Assembly (NCBI GenBank): GCA_029254025.1
Contig: JAQWYK010000004.1
Coordinates: forward strand, 1 to 35,777
Origin: Crocinitomicaceae bacterium
GTDB lineage: Bacteria > Bacteroidota > Bacteroidia > Flavobacteriales_D > Crocinitomicaceae
Direction: 5' to 3'
DNA: 35,777 nt
Shown: positions 603-35,604 of the stretch, in pieces
How positions within the stretch are numbered: the stretch's first letter is position 1
How the letters are laid out: the number at the start of each line of letters is the position of its first letter
Made by a program: the position numbers and the translations under genes
Notes under the pieces: generated by a model
Told to the model about the DNA's origin: nothing
Databases searched by the model: none
The model's input: the letters and a program-made list of their open reading frames with translations, nothing else

Positions 603-1930
603 GCTAGAATTCTTCTCCACCATTTTTTTGATGCCAATTGAATATGCTTATTGAATTGTTGGTTGTAAGCCGCAACAATTTCTTTTTCATAGGTGCTGAA
701 AAACTCAGGATCGAAATTGGCCCTTCTTAAGTTAGTCATTACCTCATCGATAGTCGCTGATTGATTTAACCAGTTATCAAACACCTCATGTCTTAAGCGA
801 ATACCAAAATTATTGATCCCTTTAAATGTCAGCGTGTCTTTATCAAATACAAAATGCATTAATATCTCTTTTTGGGGATGACGCCAAATAAACTCCTCTT
901 CATCCTCTTTGAGTTCATTCCAAACCCAGCCGTAAGTTTGATATTCTACGTCAAAAAACTTAGCAGAATTGAACCAGTGACCCGGAGAATAATTCGTAGG
1001 ATTACCACAAATAGTTTCAGCAACCGTTTCTCCCATCATTCTCCCTGTATACCAAACTTGTTCAATCGACCTGCGCATTCCATTAGATCTTTTAAATTGT
1101 GCGCAATCTCCAATTGCATAGACATTAGGTATGCTTGTGGAAAGATCAGGATTCACTAAAATTCCACGATCTATTTCAAGCGTTGTTCCTCTTAAGAAAT
1201 CAACATTCGGTGTCACACCGACTGTTAACCCCACAAACTGACAAGGAATTGTTTCGCCTGATTTGGTTGTGATGCTTTTTACGCGACCGTTATCATCCCC
1301 TTGAATAGCTTCTAGCTCAGTTTCTTTACATAAATCAAGTGCGTGATGTTGTGCCATTTGGCCTTCAATTAAATCGGCATCAGCTCGCGGTAAAATTCCG
1401 CCCCAAAAACGATCTTCACGCACTAAAAATTTCACAGGAATATCGCGCGAAAGGAGCATTTCTGCCATTTCGACTCCGATCAATCCTCCACCTACAATCA
1501 CCGCTTGTGTAACTCCTTTCGAATTCGCTTCCATTGCCTCGAGGTCCTGTTTGGAGTACAATCCTTGTACACCTTTTAAATCCTGACCCGGCCAACCAAA
1601 TGTGTTGGGCTTAGAACCTACGGCTAGAATAAGGTCATCATAGTGCAAGTCACTTTGCTGTTCCAATTTCAATGTTTTAGCATCAAAATCAATGGTTGTT
1701 ACACAATCATGAATGAGTTCGATACGATTTTTCTTCCAAAAATAAGGTTCATAAGGCTGCGTGTCCTCAAACCGCATGTGTCCCATATAAACATACATCA
1801 GTGCTGTACGGGAAAAGAAGTACTCAGATTCAGCTGAAACGACCGTAATTTTGTAGTCGGATTTCTTTCGAATATGACGAGCAGCCGTAATTCCAGCTAT
1901 TCCGTTCCCAACAATTACGATGTGCTTCAT
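599..1930 (-). CDS. NAD(P)/FAD-dependent oxidoreductase (Pyr_redox_2, NirB/rubredoxin-reductase type)
   Basis: This is a two-dinucleotide-fold flavoprotein of 443 residues. The FAD-binding Rossmann motif VGNGIAG lies at residues 7-13, the NAD(P)-binding motif VGGGLIGVEMAE at about 146-157, and the second FAD motif NVYAIGDCAQF at about 269-279. The order matches NADH-dependent reductases related to the flavoprotein part of NirB and to rubredoxin reductases. A C-terminal extension of roughly 140 residues follows the last FAD motif and has no redox-active cysteine pair that I can see. It probably passes electrons from NAD(P)H to a partner protein; the gene overlapping its stop codon, a probable membrane Fe-S protein, is the obvious candidate. 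The ATG at 1930 has no better in-frame alternative. The true electron acceptor cannot be read from the sequence. Confidence 0.85.
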   Translation of the reverse strand: MKHIVIVGNGIAGITAARHIRKKSDYKITVVSAESEYFFSRTALMYVYMGHMRFEDTQPYEPYFWKKNRIELIHDCVTTIDFDAKTLKLEQQSDLHYDDLILAVGSKPNTFGWPGQDLKGVQGLYSKQDLEAMEANSKGVTQAVIVGGGLIGVEMAEMLLSRDIPVKFLVREDRFWGGILPRADADLIEGQMAQHHALDLCKETELEAIQGDDNGRVKSITTKSGETIPCQFVGLTVGVTPNVDFLRGTTLEIDRGILVNPDLSTSIPNVYAIGDCAQFKRSNGMRRSIEQVWYTGRMMGETVAETICGNPTNYSPGHWFNSAKFFDVEYQTYGWVWNELKEDEEEFIWRHPQKEILMHFVFDKDTLTFKGINNFGIRLRHEVFDNWLNQSATIDEVMTNLRRANFDPEFFSTYEKEIVAAYNQQFNKHIQLASKKWWRRILA

Positions 1931-2022
1931 GTACCGGCGTTTTTTAACAACATTCCTTTCGACGGATGAAGTTAATGAAACTTACGAAAACAAAGGGTAT
2001 ATTGGTTTTTTAACTTTTAAGA

Positions 2023-2757
2023 TTAATTACTCTTGGAGGAACTTTCTTCCTGGTATATAGAAGTCCCTATCAAATAAAGAACTTTCCCTGGTCCGGACTT
2101 CACCTTCCCCACCTTCCAGTGAAATTGCTTTTCTGTATCAACATCGGCAATAAGTTGATTCATTTCTCGGATGGAATATGTTCTAAGGGAAGATACTACT
2201 CCGTCCCATAGTACGAATAACGGAACAAGAGGAATAAGATAGGTCAACAGTAATCGACCCCATGAAAAAGGTCGTATAAAAGGCGTCACTAAAAACACCG
2301 AAATTGGAGAAAAAAGCATCCCAAGAATACTGGCAACGCTTCTCTCCTGAGCTTCTACAATCGCAATTGAACTATTTGTATCGATTGCATTAAGAAGAAT
2401 TAATCGCGCATCGGAAGGTTTAAAATGATGCAGTGATAAAAACTGAGTGCGCAATCCTTTCAACTCTTGGCGAACATCCCGAGCATCAATCGACCTCGAA
2501 ACATACTCCATATTTCCCGTGAGATTTTTGGTGTATTCGAACGCTTTGACATTCGGATAAAAGTCCGTCAATACAATTTTCAACGATGGAACGCGATTTC
2601 TGAGTGATTCATTTAGTGCTTTTAGTCCACCACCGCCTCCAGAACCCAAATCAATAATAGTAGTTGTATTACTTTTAATCAGCGCTTCTTCAATTAAGGG
2701 CACTATTGGATTATACATTCCCGTTTTATTAGATAGGAACTGCAAAAAGTCCGTCAT
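2023..2757 (-). CDS. Class I SAM-dependent methyltransferase-like protein
   Basis: The protein has 244 residues. A glycine-rich loop following a hydrophobic strand (IIDLGSGGGGGLKAL, about residues 34-48) is the SAM-binding motif I of class I methyltransferases. An acidic residue at the end of the next strand (IVLTDFYPN, about 61-69) is in the usual place to hold the ribose. The middle part includes FLSLHHF, and the C-terminal half carries two hydrophobic stretches near 148-160 and 168-184, so the protein may associate with the membrane. It is separated by 92 bases from the oxidoreductase downstream and by 97 from the barrel gene upstream, so it may be a single transcription unit. The substrate is unknown; the family call rests on motif I and the general fold pattern only. 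Confidence 0.7.
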   Translation of the reverse strand: MTDFLQFLSNKTGMYNPIVPLIEEALIKSNTTTIIDLGSGGGGGLKALNESLRNRVPSLKIVLTDFYPNVKAFEYTKNLTGNMEYVSRSIDARDVRQELKGLRTQFLSLHHFKPSDARLILLNAIDTNSSIAIVEAQERSVASILGMLFSPISVFLVTPFIRPFSWGRLLLTYLIPLVPLFVLWDGVVSSLRTYSIREMNQLIADVDTEKQFHWKVGKVKSGPGKVLYLIGTSIYQEESSSKSN

Positions 2758-2854
2758 GTAATTCCGGAGAAAATCGGGAAACCATTTTTGATCTTAAAAC
2801 TCAAACAAATGAACTCTTGACGTAATACTTTTATATGGTCAGATTATCCGTACA

Positions 2855-3436
2855 TTATTTCAACACATCAATATTCCATCCCAAACCGAAGGAAATTCGA
2901 AACTCACTCAGCGATTGGGTATTTAATTGATTCACAAAACGACCTTGGATGTATTGCATATGAACGAATAAATGAAAGATTTTCGGAGCGTAGTAGTTGA
3001 ATCCTACATGTCCTGAAAGAACTGGTGACCAAGAAGTAACATTAGGAGAGATGGGAAGGGTTGTCACCAAACTTCCTAGTCGCGCGAAATTAATCCCTGG
3101 TTGCAATCCAACATAGGGATCAAACGCACCGCCATTACCAAGGTGATAACTCAACCCTGTAAATAACGAATGAGAAAAGTCAAAAGGTTTATTGGTTTTA
3201 TCTTGGCTATCCACAAAGTAAAATCCGTCCGCGCGAACTGAAACTTTGCTGTCTAGGTAGTAACTAAGATCCCCTTTGATATAAATCTGGGTGGCCTTTG
3301 ATTCTGTTAATCGTCCCACAGCAAAAGCCCCTTGTGCGCGCAAAATTCCAGAACTCAACTGAAAATTATCTTGTGCGGAGACATTGAAAAACGAATACAC
3401 AAATATAGAAATGAATAATACTACTTTCCTTTCCAT
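2855..3436 (-). CDS. Outer-membrane beta-barrel-type protein (hypothetical)
   Basis: The protein has 193 residues. The first 21 form a clear Sec signal peptide (VVLFISIFVYSFFNVSAQ, cleavage after AQ likely). The mature part alternates polar and hydrophobic residues in short stretches rich in Gly, Tyr and Phe (LFTGLSYHLGNGGAF, YVGLQPGINFARLG) and ends in a strand SFGLGWNIDVLK, as in small 8-stranded outer-membrane barrels. No enzymatic motif is visible. Its start codon lies inside the last codons of the upstream barrel-like gene (16-base overlap), so the two are co-expressed and may be partners or diverged duplicates. No close family is recognised. A function in the envelope is inferred from signal and composition only. 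Confidence 0.65.
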   Translation of the reverse strand: MERKVVLFISIFVYSFFNVSAQDNFQLSSGILRAQGAFAVGRLTESKATQIYIKGDLSYYLDSKVSVRADGFYFVDSQDKTNKPFDFSHSLFTGLSYHLGNGGAFDPYVGLQPGINFARLGSLVTTLPISPNVTSWSPVLSGHVGFNYYAPKIFHLFVHMQYIQGRFVNQLNTQSLSEFRISFGLGWNIDVLK

Positions 3437-19979: not shown

Positions 19980-20825
19980 TTATTTCTTAACGAAAGAATT
20001 TCTTAATACATTTCCTTTTTCAGTTTCAACAGTGTAGTAGTATACACCTGGAGACAATGCTACAACATTAAGAGTTGCAGTAGTACCAGAAACAGAAGAA
20101 GAAATTACTGTTCTACCATCCATACCAACAACAGTAACAGAATTCATAGGCTCTGCAACTGCGATATTCAATACTTCAGATGCTGGATTAGGGTATGAAT
20201 TTAAGTTGAGGTTAGCCTCTAAAACACCAGAAGTATTTTCTGTACCAGTCACAGTTATATCGTCAACAATAATAACAAACTGGTCAGTCACATCATGGTG
20301 ACGAATACCGATAAAAACAGAACCTTCACCATCTAAAGCACTAATATCTGCAGTCCGCACCAACCACTCATCACCAGTTTGGATAGTTTCAGTGTAAACT
20401 GGAGTAGCCGATTGAAAAGCAGTAACAGCAGCTGTTAAATCTGCAGCAGCAACTGCATAAACAGAGTAGTTCTCCGCAGGCCATGCAGGATCGGCAGCAG
20501 CTCTACCCCATGATAATTCTGCTGATGTAATGTTCGACAAATCAATCGCTGGAGATGCCCACCAATTATCAGGGGTTAAAGGAGCACCATTCCAAGATTC
20601 TGATAGCAGAACCTCACCTTGCGCATCATATGATGATCCGAAAGCCGTTCCTGCCCCGTCAGTATCAAGTAAATTGATTACAATCCATGCTGATGCATCC
20701 CCATCAACATCAATAACTGCTCCCGCTGCAAAATCCGCAGCAGTCGAAGCACTGTAAACAGTCGTTTGAGCGAGAGAAATTCCACCCATCATAAGCGTTA
20801 CCGCCAAAAAGTAAAGTTTTTTCAT
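19980..20825 (-). CDS. T9SS-secreted adhesin-like protein with type A C-terminal sorting domain
   Basis: The ATG at 20825 starts a clean signal peptide (MKKLYFLAVTLMMGGISLAQ), giving 281 residues; nine upstream codons in the same frame are not needed. The middle part (SWNGAPLTPDNWWASPAIDL, SVFIGIRHHDVTDQFVIIVD) resembles choice-of-anchor-J / cleaved-adhesin jelly-roll domains. The last 75 residues form a type A T9SS sorting domain: SYPNPASEVLNIAV, then VTVVGMDGRTV, then ALSPGVYYYTVETEKG and a basic VKK end. The protein should cross the inner membrane by Sec and the outer membrane by T9SS, then be released or attached to the surface after loss of the sorting domain. It has a well-placed promoter and a strong terminator, so it is a single-gene unit. 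The ligand is unknown. Confidence 0.9.
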   Translation of the reverse strand: MKKLYFLAVTLMMGGISLAQTTVYSASTAADFAAGAVIDVDGDASAWIVINLLDTDGAGTAFGSSYDAQGEVLLSESWNGAPLTPDNWWASPAIDLSNITSAELSWGRAAADPAWPAENYSVYAVAAADLTAAVTAFQSATPVYTETIQTGDEWLVRTADISALDGEGSVFIGIRHHDVTDQFVIIVDDITVTGTENTSGVLEANLNLNSYPNPASEVLNIAVAEPMNSVTVVGMDGRTVISSSVSGTTATLNVVALSPGVYYYTVETEKGNVLRNSFVKK

Positions 20826-20849
20826 AACAATTAATTTAATTAGTTTCAG

Positions 20850-20880
20850 CAAAGATAAGGAAAGTAGTACATAAATAAAA
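20850..20880 (-). promoter_or_regulatory. Promoter of the T9SS adhesin-like gene
   Basis: On the minus strand TATCTTTG (20857-20850) is an exact -7 match. It lies 19 bases after TTTT (20880-20877), one base off the TTTG -33 box. Transcription from about 20845 would give a leader of some 20 bases. Confidence 0.65.
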
Positions 20881-21833: not shown

Positions 21834-22772
21834 TTAAGATACAACATTCATATCATCCAAGACTTTCATTACACCTCGAACGGCAACTGCTGATTCTTCC
21901 AACAACACCTTCTCGTCTGCATTTAAGTCTAACTCAATAATTTTTTCAATTCCATTTTTCCCAAGAACAACTGGAACACCCAGATAAATATCTTTCATCC
22001 CATACTCACCTTGCAACCAAGCACAAACTGGGAAAATTCGTTTCTGATCACGAACAATCGCTTCAACCATTTGAGCAGCAGCAGCTCCTGGAGCATACCA
22101 AGCTGATGTTCCCAAAAGTTTTACAATCTCTCCACCACCGAATTTCGTTCTTTCGATGATTTCGTTCAATTTATCTTCAGAAATCAATTCAGTTACAGGA
22201 ATACCACCAACAGTCGTATAACGCGGAAGTGGAACCATAGTGTCTCCATGACCACCCATCAACACTGCCTGAATGTCTTTTGGTGATACATTTAATTCTA
22301 ATGCCAAAAATGAACGGTAACGCGCAGTATCTAAAACACCAGCCATACCAAACACCTTTGAGGAATCAACTTTCGCCGCTAAAAATGCACAGTAAGTCAT
22401 AACGTCTAACGGATTAGACACAATAACTATTTTCGCGTTAGGTGAATATTTAACCACTTGTTCAGTAACGGACTTAACAATTCCTGCATTCGTAGCGATT
22501 AAGTCATCACGAGACATACCTGGCTTTCTTGGTAAACCTGAAGTAATAACTACTACATCTGAATCTGCAGTTTTGGAATAATCATTTGTAGAACCAACAG
22601 TTCTTGAATCGTAAAGATTAATAGGAGAAGTCTCCCAAATATCAAGTGCTTTACCTTCTGCAAATCCTTCTTTAATGTCCAACAAAACAATTTCATTGGC
22701 AATCTCGCGCTGCGCCAATACATCCGCGCAAGTAGCACCTACGTTTCCGGCACCTACAACTGTTACTTTCAT
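21834..22772 (-). CDS. mdh: Malate dehydrogenase (NAD-dependent, LDH-like type)
   Basis: The enzyme oxidises malate to oxaloacetate in the TCA cycle. The ATG at 22772 starts the conserved N-terminus MKVTVVGAGNVGATCADVL with the NAD-binding GxGxxG at residues 7-12, so the frame upstream of it is not part of the gene; the product has 312 residues, the normal length. Substrate-binding arginines lie in GLPRKPGMSRDDL (about residues 78-90); NPLDVMTYCAF, the arginine in VLDTARYRSFLA and the catalytic His in MGGHGDTMVPL (about residue 174) complete the active site. The Arg in the LPRKPGM loop favours malate over lactate. It is transcribed alone, ends at a two-way hairpin and is divergent from the sigma-factor gene. 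The identification is secure. Confidence 0.97.
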   Translation of the reverse strand: MKVTVVGAGNVGATCADVLAQREIANEIVLLDIKEGFAEGKALDIWETSPINLYDSRTVGSTNDYSKTADSDVVVITSGLPRKPGMSRDDLIATNAGIVKSVTEQVVKYSPNAKIVIVSNPLDVMTYCAFLAAKVDSSKVFGMAGVLDTARYRSFLALELNVSPKDIQAVLMGGHGDTMVPLPRYTTVGGIPVTELISEDKLNEIIERTKFGGGEIVKLLGTSAWYAPGAAAAQMVEAIVRDQKRIFPVCAWLQGEYGMKDIYLGVPVVLGKNGIEKIIELDLNADEKVLLEESAVAVRGVMKVLDDMNVVS

Positions 22773-23092
22773 GTGTAAACTTTTAAATTGAGTATTAATT
22801 TCCGGGTCGAATTTAAGCATTTTACAACGACTTCCACTTCATTCACCTGATATTTTTTCATTCCGTTCAAGAAAGTTATAGCAAAATAAAAGAGAACGAC
22901 TTCTTTCCAATTATCCGTTTGAATTCGTCAACTACACTCAAAAGAAAAAGCCCTTCAAAAAGATTAATTGAACGGACAACTGTTCTAAGTAATAACGGAC
23001 AAAAAAGCGGTCGATTTTCCGTCTAATTGAAAAAAAAAACAAAACTTTGGCAACCGTTCGAATTGAACAGCGTCTTTAATCTGAAACAAAAC
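22773..23092. other. Divergent region between mdh and the sigma factor with repeated 9-mers
   Basis: This 320-base stretch has no convincing gene. TTGAACGGA occurs on the minus strand at 22862-22870 and on the plus strand at 22968-22976. ACGGACAA occurs at 22972-22979 and again at 22995-23002, 23 bases apart. A minus-strand TAACTTTC upstream of mdh (about 22874-22881) and a plus-strand AAACTTTG (23042-23049) are each one base from the -7 consensus. The repeats may be binding sites of a regulator serving both genes. Confidence 0.35.
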
Positions 23093-23662
23093 GTGAATAA
23101 CGATCGACTCAAAAAACTAATTAAGAAGTGTGCTCGCGGCGAGAAGCCAGCGCAAGAAAAACTTTTTAAACTGTTTTACGGGAAGATGATGGGAGTCTGT
23201 ATGCGTTATACGAAAGACCAAGACAGAGCCCAAGAAGTTGTTCAAGAAGGTTTTATAAAGGTCTTTGATAAGCTGAGTGAATTTGATTTTAAAGGTTCCT
23301 TTGAAGGATGGGTGAGAAGAATCATGGTGAATGCTTCAATTGATGCCATCCGAAAAAGAAATCGCGGACCATTTTCTACGGATGAAGATTTTATTTTCGA
23401 CAGTGCAAATCCACTGGAGGAAGTAGCTGATTTCGACGATGAGTTAACAAAACTAAAAGCTGAATATGCAATGCGAGCGATTCAATCGCTCTCTCCAGCT
23501 TACAGAACAGTATTTAACTTATACGTAATAGAAAATTATTCCCACAAAGAAATAGCGGAAATACTTTCAATATCTGAAGGTACATCTAAGTCAAACCTCG
23601 CAAAAGCAAAACAAAACCTTCGGGAAAAATTAAAAGAACAGTTTAAGAAATTAGACGTATGA
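23093..23662 (+). CDS. ECF-family RNA polymerase sigma factor
   Basis: The protein is a small sigma-70 family member with region 2 (QEKLFKLFYGKMMGVCMRY, then DRAQEVVQEGFIKVFDKLSE and WVRRIMVNASIDAIRKRNRG) and region 4 (LSPAYRTVFNLYVIENYSHK, EIAEILSISEGTSKSNLAKA), with no region 1 or 3, as in ECF factors. There is no ATG near the start. I choose the GTG at 23093 (189 residues, beginning NNDRLKKLIKKCARGEKPAQ), which gives the usual ECF N-terminus; a TTG at 23027 would add 22 unusual residues and lies upstream of the best -7-like box. The stop overlaps the next start as ATGA, so the sigma factor and its membrane partner are coupled, the normal layout for a sigma/anti-sigma pair. Target promoters are unknown. 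Confidence 0.9.
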   Translation: MNNDRLKKLIKKCARGEKPAQEKLFKLFYGKMMGVCMRYTKDQDRAQEVVQEGFIKVFDKLSEFDFKGSFEGWVRRIMVNASIDAIRKRNRGPFSTDEDFIFDSANPLEEVADFDDELTKLKAEYAMRAIQSLSPAYRTVFNLYVIENYSHKEIAEILSISEGTSKSNLAKAKQNLREKLKEQFKKLDV

Positions 23663-24927
23663 AAAAAGATAAATTAGAACAGTTTTTTAGCGATAAGCTT
23701 GAAAATTTTGAAGCACCTTACGATGCGAATGCATGGATGAGTGTTGCTTCAAAAATAGGTGAAGGCGGACCATCTTCAGGGCTGTCTCGCGCTGCCAAAA
23801 TTGGATTAATCTCCCTAGCGGCTGTCTTTGCAGGATTTGTTATCTACACATTTATTTTGGAAGAGAAGACAATTACTCACCAATCAATAGCTTCAATTGA
23901 AGAACCTGCAGAGGTAAAAGCTGTAGAGAGTTCTGTCAAAGAAATCAAGGAACAAACTCTTGTGACTCTATCTGAAAATAACGCAAACCTTGAATCAAAC
24001 AGTACGCCATCTGAATTAAATGAGGAGAATGCTCAGGAAGTAGAATTGAACTCTAGGACAATCGCTAACGAGACATCTCATCTATACAATGTGGAATCAG
24101 AGAGTTCTATCTCACATTCTAATCCTGTCATTACAAATGTGGTAACCAATTCAAAAAACAACTTTATTGCTGGACACGTCAGTACTCTACTATTGTGTAA
24201 AGGAGAAAATGTTACCATTTCTAATCTTGGTAAAGAGAAGGAAGTAGTCCGTTTCACAGTGAATGGAAAGACGATTCAATTGACAACTGGAAAGAAAACT
24301 TCATTAACCATACATGAACCAACAGAAATACGTTTTACAAATGATAAGAATGAATTAATTCGATTAGAAGACATTCAGATACTTGAGAATCCGCATCCGC
24401 ACTTCGATGTTGATGCAAACATTTACGAAGAAGGCCTCCCAGTTGCAAAATTCACATCTTACGGTAATTACAAGTCTATTTCATGGGATTTTGGCAATGA
24501 CCAAACAGCCTTAGGTCCAGAACCCACAGCCCATTACTTTGACAAAGGCGTCTTCCCAGTAACATTAACTGTAATCGGTGCCAATGGGTGTATTGGAACA
24601 GAAACAAAAAATGTTGAAATCTCAGACAAATACAATCTTCTAGCTACCAATTCTATTCGCCTGAATGATCCGAATCTTGAGACGCGAACATTTATGCCAT
24701 TTTGTTTGAAGGAACGTGAAACGAAATTCAATCTTACTATCATTGACCCGAAAGACAATTCGGTCGTATTCTCATCAAATGATACTTCCAAATCTTGGGA
24801 CGGAACAGATCAACGCACAGGAAGATTACTTCCAACATACAAGACGTTTATCTGGCAAGTGCAATTAGAAACGCCGATGCAAGGAGAAAGAGGAATTTAC
24901 AATGGTACAGTAACTATTGTCGAGTAA
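23659..24927 (+). CDS. Membrane-anchored probable anti-sigma protein with PKD and T9SS type B CTD-like domains
   Basis: The protein has 422 residues. The cytoplasmic N-terminus (LEQFFSDKLENFEAPYDANAW, about residues 6-26) resembles the short motif at the start of many Bacteroidetes anti-sigma-like proteins. A single membrane helix follows at about 47-67, then a low-complexity, Ser/Glu/Asn-rich linker to about 170. A PKD-like domain covers roughly 258-325 (PVAKFTSYGNYKSISWDFGN, GVFPVTLTVIGANGC). The last 80 residues (FNLTIIDPKDNSVVFSSND, SWDGTDQRTGRLLP, FIWQVQLE) resemble the gliding-motility-associated type B sorting domain but lack its FTPNGDG start. There is no cleavable signal peptide, so export through T9SS seems impossible; a sensor for envelope or T9SS state that holds the sigma factor is my inference. 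Confidence 0.8.
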   Translation: MKKDKLEQFFSDKLENFEAPYDANAWMSVASKIGEGGPSSGLSRAAKIGLISLAAVFAGFVIYTFILEEKTITHQSIASIEEPAEVKAVESSVKEIKEQTLVTLSENNANLESNSTPSELNEENAQEVELNSRTIANETSHLYNVESESSISHSNPVITNVVTNSKNNFIAGHVSTLLLCKGENVTISNLGKEKEVVRFTVNGKTIQLTTGKKTSLTIHEPTEIRFTNDKNELIRLEDIQILENPHPHFDVDANIYEEGLPVAKFTSYGNYKSISWDFGNDQTALGPEPTAHYFDKGVFPVTLTVIGANGCIGTETKNVEISDKYNLLATNSIRLNDPNLETRTFMPFCLKERETKFNLTIIDPKDNSVVFSSNDTSKSWDGTDQRTGRLLPTYKTFIWQVQLETPMQGERGIYNGTVTIVE

Positions 24928-34386: not shown

Positions 34387-35550
34387 TTATCGTTTAATCA
34401 CTTTGAATGAATTCTCGTTAACTTCCAAAAAGTATACACCGTTTGGAAGGTTGGTTACATTTATAGATTTGCTCCCTATTCCTTCAAAAACTAACACACC
34501 TAATGAATTTGTCAAGCGTACATTGTCTGAAGCGCGAATTCCGTTGATCGTGAGTTCATGTGCAACAGGATTCGGATAAATAGTAATTTGGGCAGCAGGC
34601 AGCTCACTTAACCCAGTGGTAGGTTCCTCACAATCGAATACGCATTGTGCATTCACCACCGTTCGAACATCATTCGCCTCCAAGGCATCTATCACTAATT
34701 TATCATCGCATTGATCCTTCAAATATATATTCAACCAAGGAATCATGTAGTCGCTGCTCGTTTCTTGCTGTTCTATTCGTGTTACCGTAATTCCACCTGC
34801 AGAAAATGCTTCTCCAGTATCACAATTAAAATTAGGGTTGGCAAAATAACAATGTGCTCCGCCGGTAATTGAGACATAGTATTTACACGTCGAAGTTAGA
34901 GCGTTAAAAATAGGTAAGTGATGATCAGCTTCAGGGGTCACACCATCCGCAGAACCTGACAAGACCAATGCAGGCAAAGAAACAGATGCAGCCGCAGTCA
35001 CAGCACTTGGATTAGTTTCAGCAGGAGCTAAACCAATTATCGTTTGGATATTGGTGGTTTCATTAGCGGCAATGAACGTAGCCCCCCCTCCCATTGAGTG
35101 GCCGCAAATAGCAGCCTTGCCTGAAAGTTTATTATTGAAAAGACTGGTCACATCATCGTTTAACACTAATAATTCATCCACGACCAATGCCAAGTCTTTT
35201 CCAAAATCTTCGTGAGAAGGTGAAAACCATCCTTCTGTTCTTGGAAACGCCACAATGTACCCATTGGCTACTAAATCGGTCCAGATATTTTCATACGCAT
35301 CCCAAGACATCACGAAACCATGCCCGAAAACAACAATTGGAAACTCCCCTTCCGATACAGGCACATCCGTTCCAGCAGTGGTGGCAGGATAATAAATCTC
35401 GGTTTGGATTTGTCGACCTGCGCCTCCTCCACTTCCAAACCCTCCTGTTCTGGAAGGATCATTAAACGTTATCGTTGTAGTTCCAACTTGTTGCGCGTGC
35501 ATCACAAAGCACGACCCCAAAATAATATATAAACTCGTCAATCTGCTCAT
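34387..35550 (-). CDS. T9SS-secreted alpha/beta hydrolase (chlorophyllase/dienelactone-hydrolase-like)
   Basis: I start the gene at the ATG at 35550, which begins a signal peptide (MSRLTSLYIILGSCFVMHAQ); 18 upstream codons in frame include the promoter. The product has 387 residues. The hydrolase core has the oxyanion-side HG in IVVFGHGFVMSWDAYENIW, the nucleophile elbow AAICGHSMGGGATF (Ser about 153), an acidic residue in LSGSADGVTPEA (about 200) and a His in ITGGAHCYF (about 231). The arrangement resembles lipase/chlorophyllase-like and PET-hydrolase-like families, but the substrate is open. The last 75 residues form a type A T9SS sorting domain (TIYPNPVAHELTINGI, ending LPNGVYFLEVNENSFKVIKR), so the enzyme should work outside the cell. 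Confidence 0.9.
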   Translation of the reverse strand: MSRLTSLYIILGSCFVMHAQQVGTTTITFNDPSRTGGFGSGGGAGRQIQTEIYYPATTAGTDVPVSEGEFPIVVFGHGFVMSWDAYENIWTDLVANGYIVAFPRTEGWFSPSHEDFGKDLALVVDELLVLNDDVTSLFNNKLSGKAAICGHSMGGGATFIAANETTNIQTIIGLAPAETNPSAVTAAASVSLPALVLSGSADGVTPEADHHLPIFNALTSTCKYYVSITGGAHCYFANPNFNCDTGEAFSAGGITVTRIEQQETSSDYMIPWLNIYLKDQCDDKLVIDALEANDVRTVVNAQCVFDCEEPTTGLSELPAAQITIYPNPVAHELTINGIRASDNVRLTNSLGVLVFEGIGSKSINVTNLPNGVYFLEVNENSFKVIKR

Positions 35551-35571
35551 AACACCATTCAATTGTTTGAC

Positions 35572-35604
35572 CAAATGTATGAAATAGTGTATTTTCATGC
35601 GCAA
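35572..35604 (-). promoter_or_regulatory. Promoter of the T9SS hydrolase gene
   Basis: On the minus strand TTG (35604-35602) is followed after 22 bases by TACATTTG (35579-35572), an exact -7 match with a slightly long spacer. Transcription from about 35567 would give a leader of about 17 bases. Confidence 0.6.

Follow-up and report, generated by a model that had tools for sequence, protein, structure and literature searches.

The pair of overlapping genes at 23093-24927 of the window (the whole 35,777-nucleotide stretch of Crocinitomicaceae DNA that was analysed) encodes an ECF sigma factor, sig1, and an inner-membrane partner whose ectodomain ends in a homologue of the type B sorting domain (CTD) of the type IX secretion system (T9SS). 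A new observation is that the sigma factor's own promoter type also marks genes for secreted proteins. The sigma factor is likely to control T9SS cargo genes, presumably by using those sites, and there is an even chance that the pair is a secretion-coupled sigma/anti-sigma switch, in which an engaged CTD would free the sigma factor for T9SS cargo genes. This suggests that the cell adjusts its output of exported proteins to the capacity of its exporter.

The sig1 gene (23093-23662, + strand) encodes a protein of about 190 aa (189) that has regions 2 and 4 only, with family profile matches to Sigma70_r2 (PF04542, E 6.4e-16), Sigma70_r4_2 (PF08281, E 3.4e-16) and TIGR02937 (100.7 bits). Its start is best read as the GTG at 23093, since the conserved promoter lies just upstream, and orthologues place it there as well. 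The partner gene (23659-24927, + strand; 422 aa) begins with the ATG at 23659, before the sigma ORF ends at 23662, which bears out the ATGA overlap of the original prediction. The pair is found throughout the Crocinitomicaceae and in other Flavobacteriales, mostly adjoining mdh, which in the window is a divergent conserved neighbour (21834-22820, - strand) and serves as context only. The mdh gene lies near the pair in 22 of the 30 loci of the first set and in 45 of 51 named loci, some loci being too short for it to be visible. The sigma gene immediately precedes the partner in 29 of those 30 loci (the window counted among them), the exception, L012, having a sequence that starts within the partner. 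Upstream sequence is present for 47 of the 51 named loci, and 44 of these satisfy the adjacency rule for sigma factor and partner; the other three (L473, L483 and L493) have a sigma ORF there, with ORF limits beyond that rule. This adjacency across loci rules out the pair as a chance or local oddity. Two orthologues have the sigma factor and anti-sigma in frame, a natural read-through.

The partner almost certainly consists of a two-helix module, one membrane helix, a tether, an Ig-like domain, a PKD domain and the CTD homologue, in that order, all encoded on the + strand. The cytoplasmic anti-sigma module (residues 1-35, 23659-23763) has two helices and a Trp26 that is invariant in the orthologue alignment, and the predicted structure (model m07f2a25658cc) places helices at residues 3-15, 23-34 and 44-67, the last, a hydrophobic stretch, being the predicted transmembrane helix (23788-23859). 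The tether (residues ~68-167, 23860-24159) is poorly conserved and appears disordered, with pLDDT <50 for residues 67-164 against ~95 for residues 170-422. Of the proteins that match the N-terminal module and no other part of the partner, 20 were retrieved, each of which adjoins an ECF sigma gene. The earlier description of an ECF sigma factor with an inner-membrane, anti-sigma-like partner is upheld. The partner very likely acts as an anti-sigma, and its inhibition of the sigma factor is expected by analogy with known ECF/anti-sigma pairs.

Some of the other ECF-adjacent proteins with this module end like outer-membrane barrels, as judged by eye, and five of ~240-267 aa (L149, L150, L153, L155 and L156, from one family of the class, f17) have no C-terminal CTD by eye. 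The Dma anti-sigmas, as far as they are described in the parts of PMC13088901 available, are alike in having an N-terminal anti-sigma domain, one membrane helix, a long disordered tether and a neighbouring ECF sigma gene, and the barrel-like ends matched by the module profile also recall Dma; this likeness rests on the descriptions of Dma, not on Dma sequence. The C-terminus of Dma is an outer-membrane beta-barrel, whereas that of the partner is a set of Ig, PKD and type B CTD beta-sandwiches, and the described Dma regulon comprises vesiculation genes and PULs, whereas the predicted regulon here is T9SS cargo. The partner is not filed as a Dma anti-sigma, nor as T9SS cargo.

The lack of a cleavable signal peptide had been noted before and agrees with the alignment and the model: residues 1-43 form a conserved hydrophilic module, and the sole strong N-terminal hydrophobic stretch starts at residue 44, unlike what is expected of T9SS cargo. 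The earlier statement that a fixed copy of a sorting domain cannot be cargo is an argument, and an ectodomain cut from its membrane stub could still be exported by the T9SS as a surface protein, with regulation secondary. The canonical CTD of a second partner in the same genome fits such shedding, but the position of the hydrophobic stretch, the conserved cytoplasmic module and the conserved association with a sigma gene make it highly improbable.

The Ig-like domain (residues ~168-242, 24160-24384) has a nearly invariant Cys180 in the alignment and model, and aligns with the tandem Ig domains of GhpA. The PKD-like domain that had been proposed (residues ~243-324, 24385-24630) is borne out by a PKD_4 match (PF18911, residues 267-319, E 4.5e-08) and a PKD match (PF00801), the only families found for the partner at curated cut-offs, and its model superposes on 6aem_A (Z 12.1, rmsd 1.8 over 79 residues).

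The CTD homologue (residues ~325-422, 24631-24924) is real by sequence homology. The prediction of a type B domain stands for the family: PF13585 (CHU_C) is matched by 11 of 28 aligned orthologues and TIGR04131 by 5 of 28 (E <= 0.01). The window's own copy matches neither profile and lacks the TPNGDGIND motif. Partners from other families within the order keep TPN(G/A)DGIND...W(D/T)G. The earlier description is amended in that the window's clade has a degenerate CTD, whereas the second pair and the other families have a canonical one. In pairwise searches, the partner from residue ~228-272 to 421 matches the C-termini of ORFs of 800-2,500 aa. The many orthologues rule out a chance resemblance. 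Structure comparison is indecisive, since T9SS chains score no higher than streptococcal protease domains do. The CTD model (pLDDT 89.9) has the PorZ entry 5m11 as its top Foldseek row (E 0.0085; none reaches E <= 0.001), and VIA-align gives Z 7.2-8.3 for the T9SS chains 8glk_D, 5m11, 6za2_B and 8gl8_D and up to 9.5 for the protease domains. Against the sequences of solved structures, the window's CTD alone finds nothing significant (best E 0.93), profile A1, built from the 28 orthologues, finds PKD and Ig-type domains only, and profile A5 finds the GhpA C-terminus (E 1.4e-13).

The degenerate motif in the window's clade leaves room for a generic sensor, in which the Ig-PKD-CTD head was borrowed from cargo and now has glycans, peptidoglycan or an outer-membrane protein as its ligand, so that only the regulon ties the pair to the T9SS. 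PKD and Ig domains are often ligand-binding, and unrelated C-termini occur in further proteins that share the N-terminal module. We consider such a sensor fairly improbable, as the CTD is kept at the extreme C-terminus across families, its motif is canonical in the second partner and near-canonical in L029 and L032-L035, and the regulon is rich in cargo.

The predicted autoregulatory ECF promoter of sig1 (23049-23074, + strand), recognised by upstream conservation among sigma loci, consists of a -35 element GGCAACC (23049-23055), a 15-bp spacer and a -10 element CGTC (23071-23074), and ends 18 bases before the GTG start. The loose motif ([AG]GCAAC, spacing 14-16, CGT[CT]) precedes the sigma gene in 29 of 29 loci, with spacing 15 in 27 of them and the strict form RGCAACC-N15-CGTY in 24. 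Among the 45 named loci meeting the adjacency rule, 42 have the loose motif. The ATGA overlap and the conserved promoter fit co-transcription and autoregulation of the pair.

Across 34 genomes there are 96 non-self strict sites. Sigma adjacency is seen in 29 of these genomes, and the other five (G004, G026, G036, G039 and G044) have a partner match only, in G004 to the C-terminal half. Among the strict sites 69 of 96 lie outside coding sequence, compared with 13 of 77 control sites (p 1.8e-13), and 44 of 96 have the start of a signal-peptide-like gene within 120 bp downstream, at a median distance of 31 bp, compared with 1 of 77 controls (p 4.5e-13). The idea of a regulon came from the first 14 genomes, where 23 of 25 non-self N15 sites were examined; the two left out (C36:42636 and C43:1503 of G000) lie inside ORFs resembling recJ and xerC. 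In the 20 genomes searched afterwards, 33 of 73 sites precede a signal-peptide-like gene. Signal peptides were called by an ad hoc hydrophobicity rule, and some of the seven of 51 downstream ORFs that fall below it look like signal peptides by eye. Six of the 51 run off their contig or sequence fragment, and the C-termini of the remaining 45 were scanned: 22 have T9SS sorting domains, 15 matching TIGR04131 and 7 TIGR04183, a sum that assumes different proteins for type A and type B, as the C-terminal letters indicate by eye. The base rate of T9SS cargo was assumed to be 3%. One further downstream gene resembles PorP/SprF, with a score below the cut-off.

Fourteen genomes lacking a full-length partner have 40 sites, of which 30 were examined; no signal-peptide gene is found at these 30, and five of them lie outside coding sequence. 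A single genome accounts for 15 of the 40 sites, and two of the genomes (G079 and G083) have local cargo-type matches to A1. The other controls cover only sites with a locus, 17 of 35 at N14 (three chosen by hand) and 30 of 71 at N11-12. The 84 control ORFs include motif-chosen regions (L083 and L384), which biases them against the regulon reading. Raw counts of the motif and of its reversed pattern (53 and 63, 73 and 154, 88 and 79) give no clear excess, so the regulon signal lies only in the position of the sites and in the downstream genes. The pair could also be an ordinary ECF/anti-sigma pair, with the predicted regulon belonging to another ECF sigma factor that has the same promoter. The window's genome has 15 matches to sigma-70 region 2, promoters of the type GCAAC...GTC may be common to several ECF sigmas, and that of a second sigma factor, sig2, is close. 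This is quite unlikely, however, given that the motif is the sigma factor's own conserved promoter and that the association is not seen at the 30 of 40 sites examined in genomes without a full-length partner.

In the window's genome (G000) a strong sig1-type promoter precedes 3 of 22 type B cargo genes; the -35 element is GGCAACT in two of these, and the spacing is 16 in the third. The 22 are the upstream regions examined of 32 TIGR04131 places, the other 10 being at contig edges, in the second partner, in a frame with a stop or not fetched. Besides the sigma factor's own promoter, this genome has three strict N15 sites, of which two are in coding sequence and one precedes a signal-peptide gene. 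By similarity to the anti-sigma CTD, cargo CTDs with sig1 promoters rank 1, 3, 8 and 15 of 25, and it is suggestive only that the anti-sigma CTD may most resemble the cargo of its own regulon.

In the proposed switch, the two-helix domain of the anti-sigma would keep the ECF sigma factor at the inner membrane, while the disordered tether would span the periplasm and bear the Ig-PKD-CTD head. The head would mimic the C-terminus of type B T9SS cargo, so that the outer-membrane part of the T9SS, either a carrier of the PorP/SprF kind or the SprA channel, may engage it. Type B CTDs bind PorP-like proteins (PMC9143113), which makes these a likely ligand by analogy, and contact of the CTD with T9SS parts is somewhat better supported than an even bet. 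Engagement might pull the anti-sigma or expose it to proteolysis, so freeing the sigma factor, which would transcribe, besides its own operon, genes whose products are exported, many as T9SS cargo; real cargo occupying the carriers would displace the mimic, and the sigma factor would be held once more. That engagement of the CTD, rather than its absence, frees the sigma factor is a tentative choice, at slightly under even chances. With the opposite sign, an unengaged or displaced CTD would report a jammed T9SS and release the sigma factor for a stress response that supplies secreted proteins and envelope factors. RpoE-like ECF systems classically respond to damage, the architecture and regulon are equally compatible with such an alarm, and the small secreted-type proteins (~115-205 aa) that are frequent downstream of the sites might act in repair; NCBIfam gives no match for five of these or for a 184-aa one. 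An alarm is nevertheless unlikely, as a jammed exporter should not get more cargo, yet sorting domains are present in 22 of the 45 downstream genes.

Release upon engagement would extend to the T9SS the export-coupled transcription known from flagella, where the anti-sigma FlgM ties the state of flagellar export, via sigma28, to transcription of exported products. FlgM is soluble and wholly exported, whereas the anti-sigma here is membrane-anchored, and the likeness is one of description, not of sequence. To our knowledge, the matching of T9SS cargo synthesis to export capacity is an open question beyond PorXY-SigP. In Porphyromonas gingivalis, an ECF sigma factor governs T9SS genes, with the CTD protein PorA acting upstream and its CTD binding PorV, so that the two systems share an ECF sigma factor tied to the T9SS and a CTD-bearing protein upstream of it (PMC7712824). 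According to the parts of that account available, PorA is a surface protein that acts via a two-component system, and the genes driven by SigP are those of T9SS components, whereas the CTD of the present pair belongs to a membrane anti-sigma and cargo genes are the predicted targets; the pair also differs from sigP as described there in its conserved, overlapping, anti-sigma-like partner (PMC7712824). In the excerpted account of F. psychrophilum, SM6 (CGT-box) ECF promoters precede the T9SS genes GldN and PorU and also an ECF/anti-sigma operon, so the SM6 targets include T9SS parts whereas the predicted sig1 targets are cargo genes (PMC9723704).

The T9SS link that had been guessed is now backed by the predicted regulon at secreted and T9SS cargo genes. 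The survey of co-occurrence with the T9SS proposed alongside it agrees, with SprA_N in all but one of 59 genomes tested from the order (58 of 59, the single miss being in a genome 79% complete), but discriminates little because SprA is near universal there, and was dropped as strong proof. A sorting-domain homologue on an anti-sigma, with the sigma factor's promoter type at cargo genes, makes the link directly and cheaply testable. It also cautions that the name 'T9SS type B sorting domain-containing' can cover membrane regulators.

The window's genome has a second ECF sigma/anti-sigma pair of the same design, with a canonical CTD. The Ig-like domain, the conserved promoter and this pair had been overlooked in the original prediction. 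The sig2 promoter, TGCAACY-N16-NGTCT, differs from that of sig1 yet is close to it. Promoter motifs of this kind would offer a code by which the T9SS regulons of uncultured Flavobacteriales could be predicted. It is possible, though doubtful, that cargo-mimicking anti-sigmas serve as export licences in the Flavobacteriales, with two channels per cell (RGCAACC-N15-CGTY and TGCAACY-N16-NGTCT); the CTD type would match the cargo class of the sigma factor, and docking on the matching carrier would free it. The sig2 promoter has the same trend towards secreted-protein genes and is found at 2 of the 22 type B cargo genes, whose CTDs rank 2 and 20 of 25 by similarity to that of the sig2 anti-sigma.

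The ECF sigma factor gene sig1 (23093-23662) encodes regions 2 and 4 and overlaps the gene for its 422-residue partner (partner 1, 23659-24927) as ATGA. This coupling was part of the original prediction, and the pair is also conserved in relatives; a sigma factor paired with a partner bearing a homologue of the T9SS type B sorting domain (CTD) is a real, conserved feature, beyond what that prediction could show. In the structure model, two short helices of the partner (residues 3-15 and 23-34) precede a helix crossing the membrane (44-67), which leads into a tether of predicted disorder (67-164). The ectodomain beyond it is modelled with high confidence as an Ig-like domain, a PKD domain and a C-terminal beta-sandwich. 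The PKD domain is also a Pfam match, and structure comparison gives Z 12.1 to 6aem_A over 79 residues.

Position and overlap argue for partner 1 as a putative anti-sigma factor. In a sample of 296 genomes from the phylum, full-length matches, among those listed, are confined to the order of the window (its own genome, G000, together with G022 and G043), and the N-terminal module alone also matches other proteins of about 240-550 residues. For each of the 20 fetched proteins that match through this module alone, the gene immediately upstream encodes an ECF sigma factor, and several of these proteins appear by eye to end in an outer-membrane barrel. This layout is shared with the Dma anti-sigma factors, described in excerpts of PMC13088901 as spanning the periplasm via the barrel. 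At 1363-3179 of locus L079 (contig C24), the window's own genome has a third ECF sigma gene and, after it, the gene for a protein that is hydrophobic near its N-terminus and, by eye, barrel-like at its end. With this Dma-like arrangement, both designs seem to coexist in a single genome.

The C-terminus had been likened to type B CTDs, and homology is seen although the window copy by itself matches neither TIGR04131 nor PF13585 in the family profile search. Its C-terminal part (to residue 421) aligns pairwise with the C-termini of large, cargo-size ORFs, 11 of 28 partner orthologues match CHU_C (PF13585) and five match TIGR04131 (E <= 0.01), and direct alignment with cargo CTDs reveals a common core; together, these sequence comparisons show homology to the type B sorting domain. 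Within the window's clade, the motif TPNGDGIND has degenerated; orthologues in other families (L029, L032-L035) of the order retain YNLLAP..F.PN.DG.ND...W.G. The structural check is more equivocal. The CTD modelled alone has a pLDDT of 89.9 and a PorZ entry is its top Foldseek row, but the match is weak (E 0.0085), and chains from T9SS entries (8glk_D, 5m11, 6za2_B, 8gl8_D) reach Z 7.2-8.3, a level that unrelated beta-sandwiches equal or exceed (up to Z 9.5). Elsewhere, a C-terminal stretch (residues 5816-5888) of GhpA, the grappling hook protein of Aureispira (PDB 9flp), matches our type B CTD profile (E 1.4e-13). In the window's own genome, a type B CTD frame at C22:53515-53985 (L087) contains a TAA in frame and may be what is left of a cargo gene.

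The pair is widespread in Crocinitomicaceae and is also present in further families of Flavobacteriales. In 29 of the first 30 loci the sigma gene lies just upstream of the partner, with L012 starting within the partner. Among 51 named loci, including Brumimicrobium, Lishizhenia and Fluviicola, 44 of the 47 with upstream sequence pass the adjacency rule and the remaining three also show a sigma ORF there. In a survey of the order, SprA_N is found in 58 of 59 genomes, the single miss being 79% complete. The divergent neighbor is mdh (22/30 and 45/51 loci, respectively). At this position, with L008, L009, L019, L033 and L034 as examples, it exists in two versions, about 79-98% and about 48-59% identical to that of the window (21834-22820), as though the gene had been exchanged at its site repeatedly. 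CP034120.1 (L492), whose title names Glaciecola amylolytica, has this Flavobacteriales locus and ranks next to Fluviicola chungangensis; its organism name is probably wrong.

The motif [AG]GCAACN, a 14-16 base spacer and CGT[CT] precedes the sigma gene in 29/29 loci (spacer 15 in 27), 24 of them with the strict form RGCAACC-N15-CGTY; the predicted sig1 promoter is at 23049-23074. A search of the 34 genomes in which partner 1 has a match gave counts not clearly above those of the reversed pattern (73 versus 154 for spacings 14-15, 88 versus 79 for spacing 15); site location is therefore what carries the information. Among 98 non-self sites, 96 were examined: 69 are outside coding sequence, 51 of these lying no more than 120 bp from an ORF start (median distance 31 bp), and 44 of the 96 precede a signal-peptide-like N-terminus by our own rule. 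The idea arose from the first 14 genomes; in the separate set of 20 searched later, the fraction is 33/73. Control sites were at spacing 14 (17 of 35 examined, four noncoding, one signal-peptide-like, by eye a membrane protein resembling LspA), at spacing 11-12 (30 of 71, four noncoding, none signal-peptide-like) and in 14 genomes without a full-length partner (30 of 40, five noncoding, none signal-peptide-like, one just under the rule). Pooled, this is 44/96 versus 1/77 (p 4.5e-13).

The C-terminal stretches of 45 complete downstream ORFs match type B models (TIGR04131 in 15, PF13585 in 15) and type A models (TIGR04183 in seven, PF18962 in seven), so that about half are predicted T9SS cargo. 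One further gene is a PorP/SprF relative (E 2.4e-12, under the family cut-off), the remainder encode mainly small secreted-type proteins, and a few sites (L285, L307, L326, L337) are likely chance occurrences. Three look-alike secreted-type proteins of about 130 residues (L188, L202, L203), each behind a promoter of the sig1 type, are candidate regulon members; the family scan gives no NCBIfam match for L202, and no sorting-domain family match (TIGR04131, PF13585, TIGR04183, PF18962) is assignable to the other two.

A second ECF sigma gene, sig2, overlaps the gene for a 352-residue partner in the same genome (contig C36, L084, 2056-3667). Partner 2 combines a single hydrophobic stretch with a PKD-like domain and a CTD of canonical sequence (FTPNGDGSND...WDG; 37.5 bits, cut-off 35). 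A sig2-type sigma adjoins in 18 of 30 loci retrieved with it, its own included, the others being cargo-type ORFs or cut contigs. The conserved promoter site of sig2 differs from that of sig1 (by eye, TGCAACY-N16-NGTCT in 15 of 18 upstreams). In the window's genome, sig1-type promoters of at least 10 bits precede 3/22 type B cargo genes (L367, L381, L363) versus 1/84 other ORFs, that one (L083) from a region fetched for bearing the motif (rank test on scores, p 0.0098). In front of two other type B cargo genes (L375, L362), sig2-type promoters score 25.1 and 21.1 bits, the best of 77 controls being 8.8. A search of 12 genomes finds the sig2 pattern 18 times and its reverse six times. Of the 18 sites, eight are in front of sig2 itself, one is upstream of a sigma gene truncated by a contig end (L445), perhaps the sig2 of that genome, and nine precede genes with, by eye, a signal-peptide or lipoprotein-like start, one of them (L446) a type B cargo gene of G000 already scored. 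The window also encodes two type A cargo-like proteins, with tails judged by eye (19980-20852 and 34387-35604, both minus strand); neither has a sig1- or sig2-type site ahead of it in the scan, which for the second covered only 173 bases.

Type B CTDs bind PorP-like outer-membrane proteins, thought to be cargo-specific (excerpts of PMC9143113), so a tethered inner-membrane protein whose head is of type B could reach across the periplasm to a carrier and dock there, by analogy with Dma proteins and their barrel. As originally proposed, the partner is hypothesized to sense the state or load of the T9SS. Since the predicted targets are cargo-rich, the most economical reading is licensing through putative contact and release: with spare export capacity the mimic would dock, the docked anti-sigma would let the sigma factor go, and the cargo then produced would displace the mimic by outcompeting it. 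A response to docking of the opposite sign is possible. Among Bacteroidota ECF/anti-sigma systems, the pair represents a new form, predicted to be linked to T9SS cargo; a search of open-licence papers found no description of an anti-sigma factor bearing a T9SS sorting domain. Related cases are known: in P. gingivalis, where SigP drives T9SS genes, the PorXY-SigP system has the CTD protein PorA acting upstream of it (excerpts of PMC7712824), and in F. psychrophilum, ECF promoters with a CGT box precede T9SS genes (excerpts of PMC9723704).
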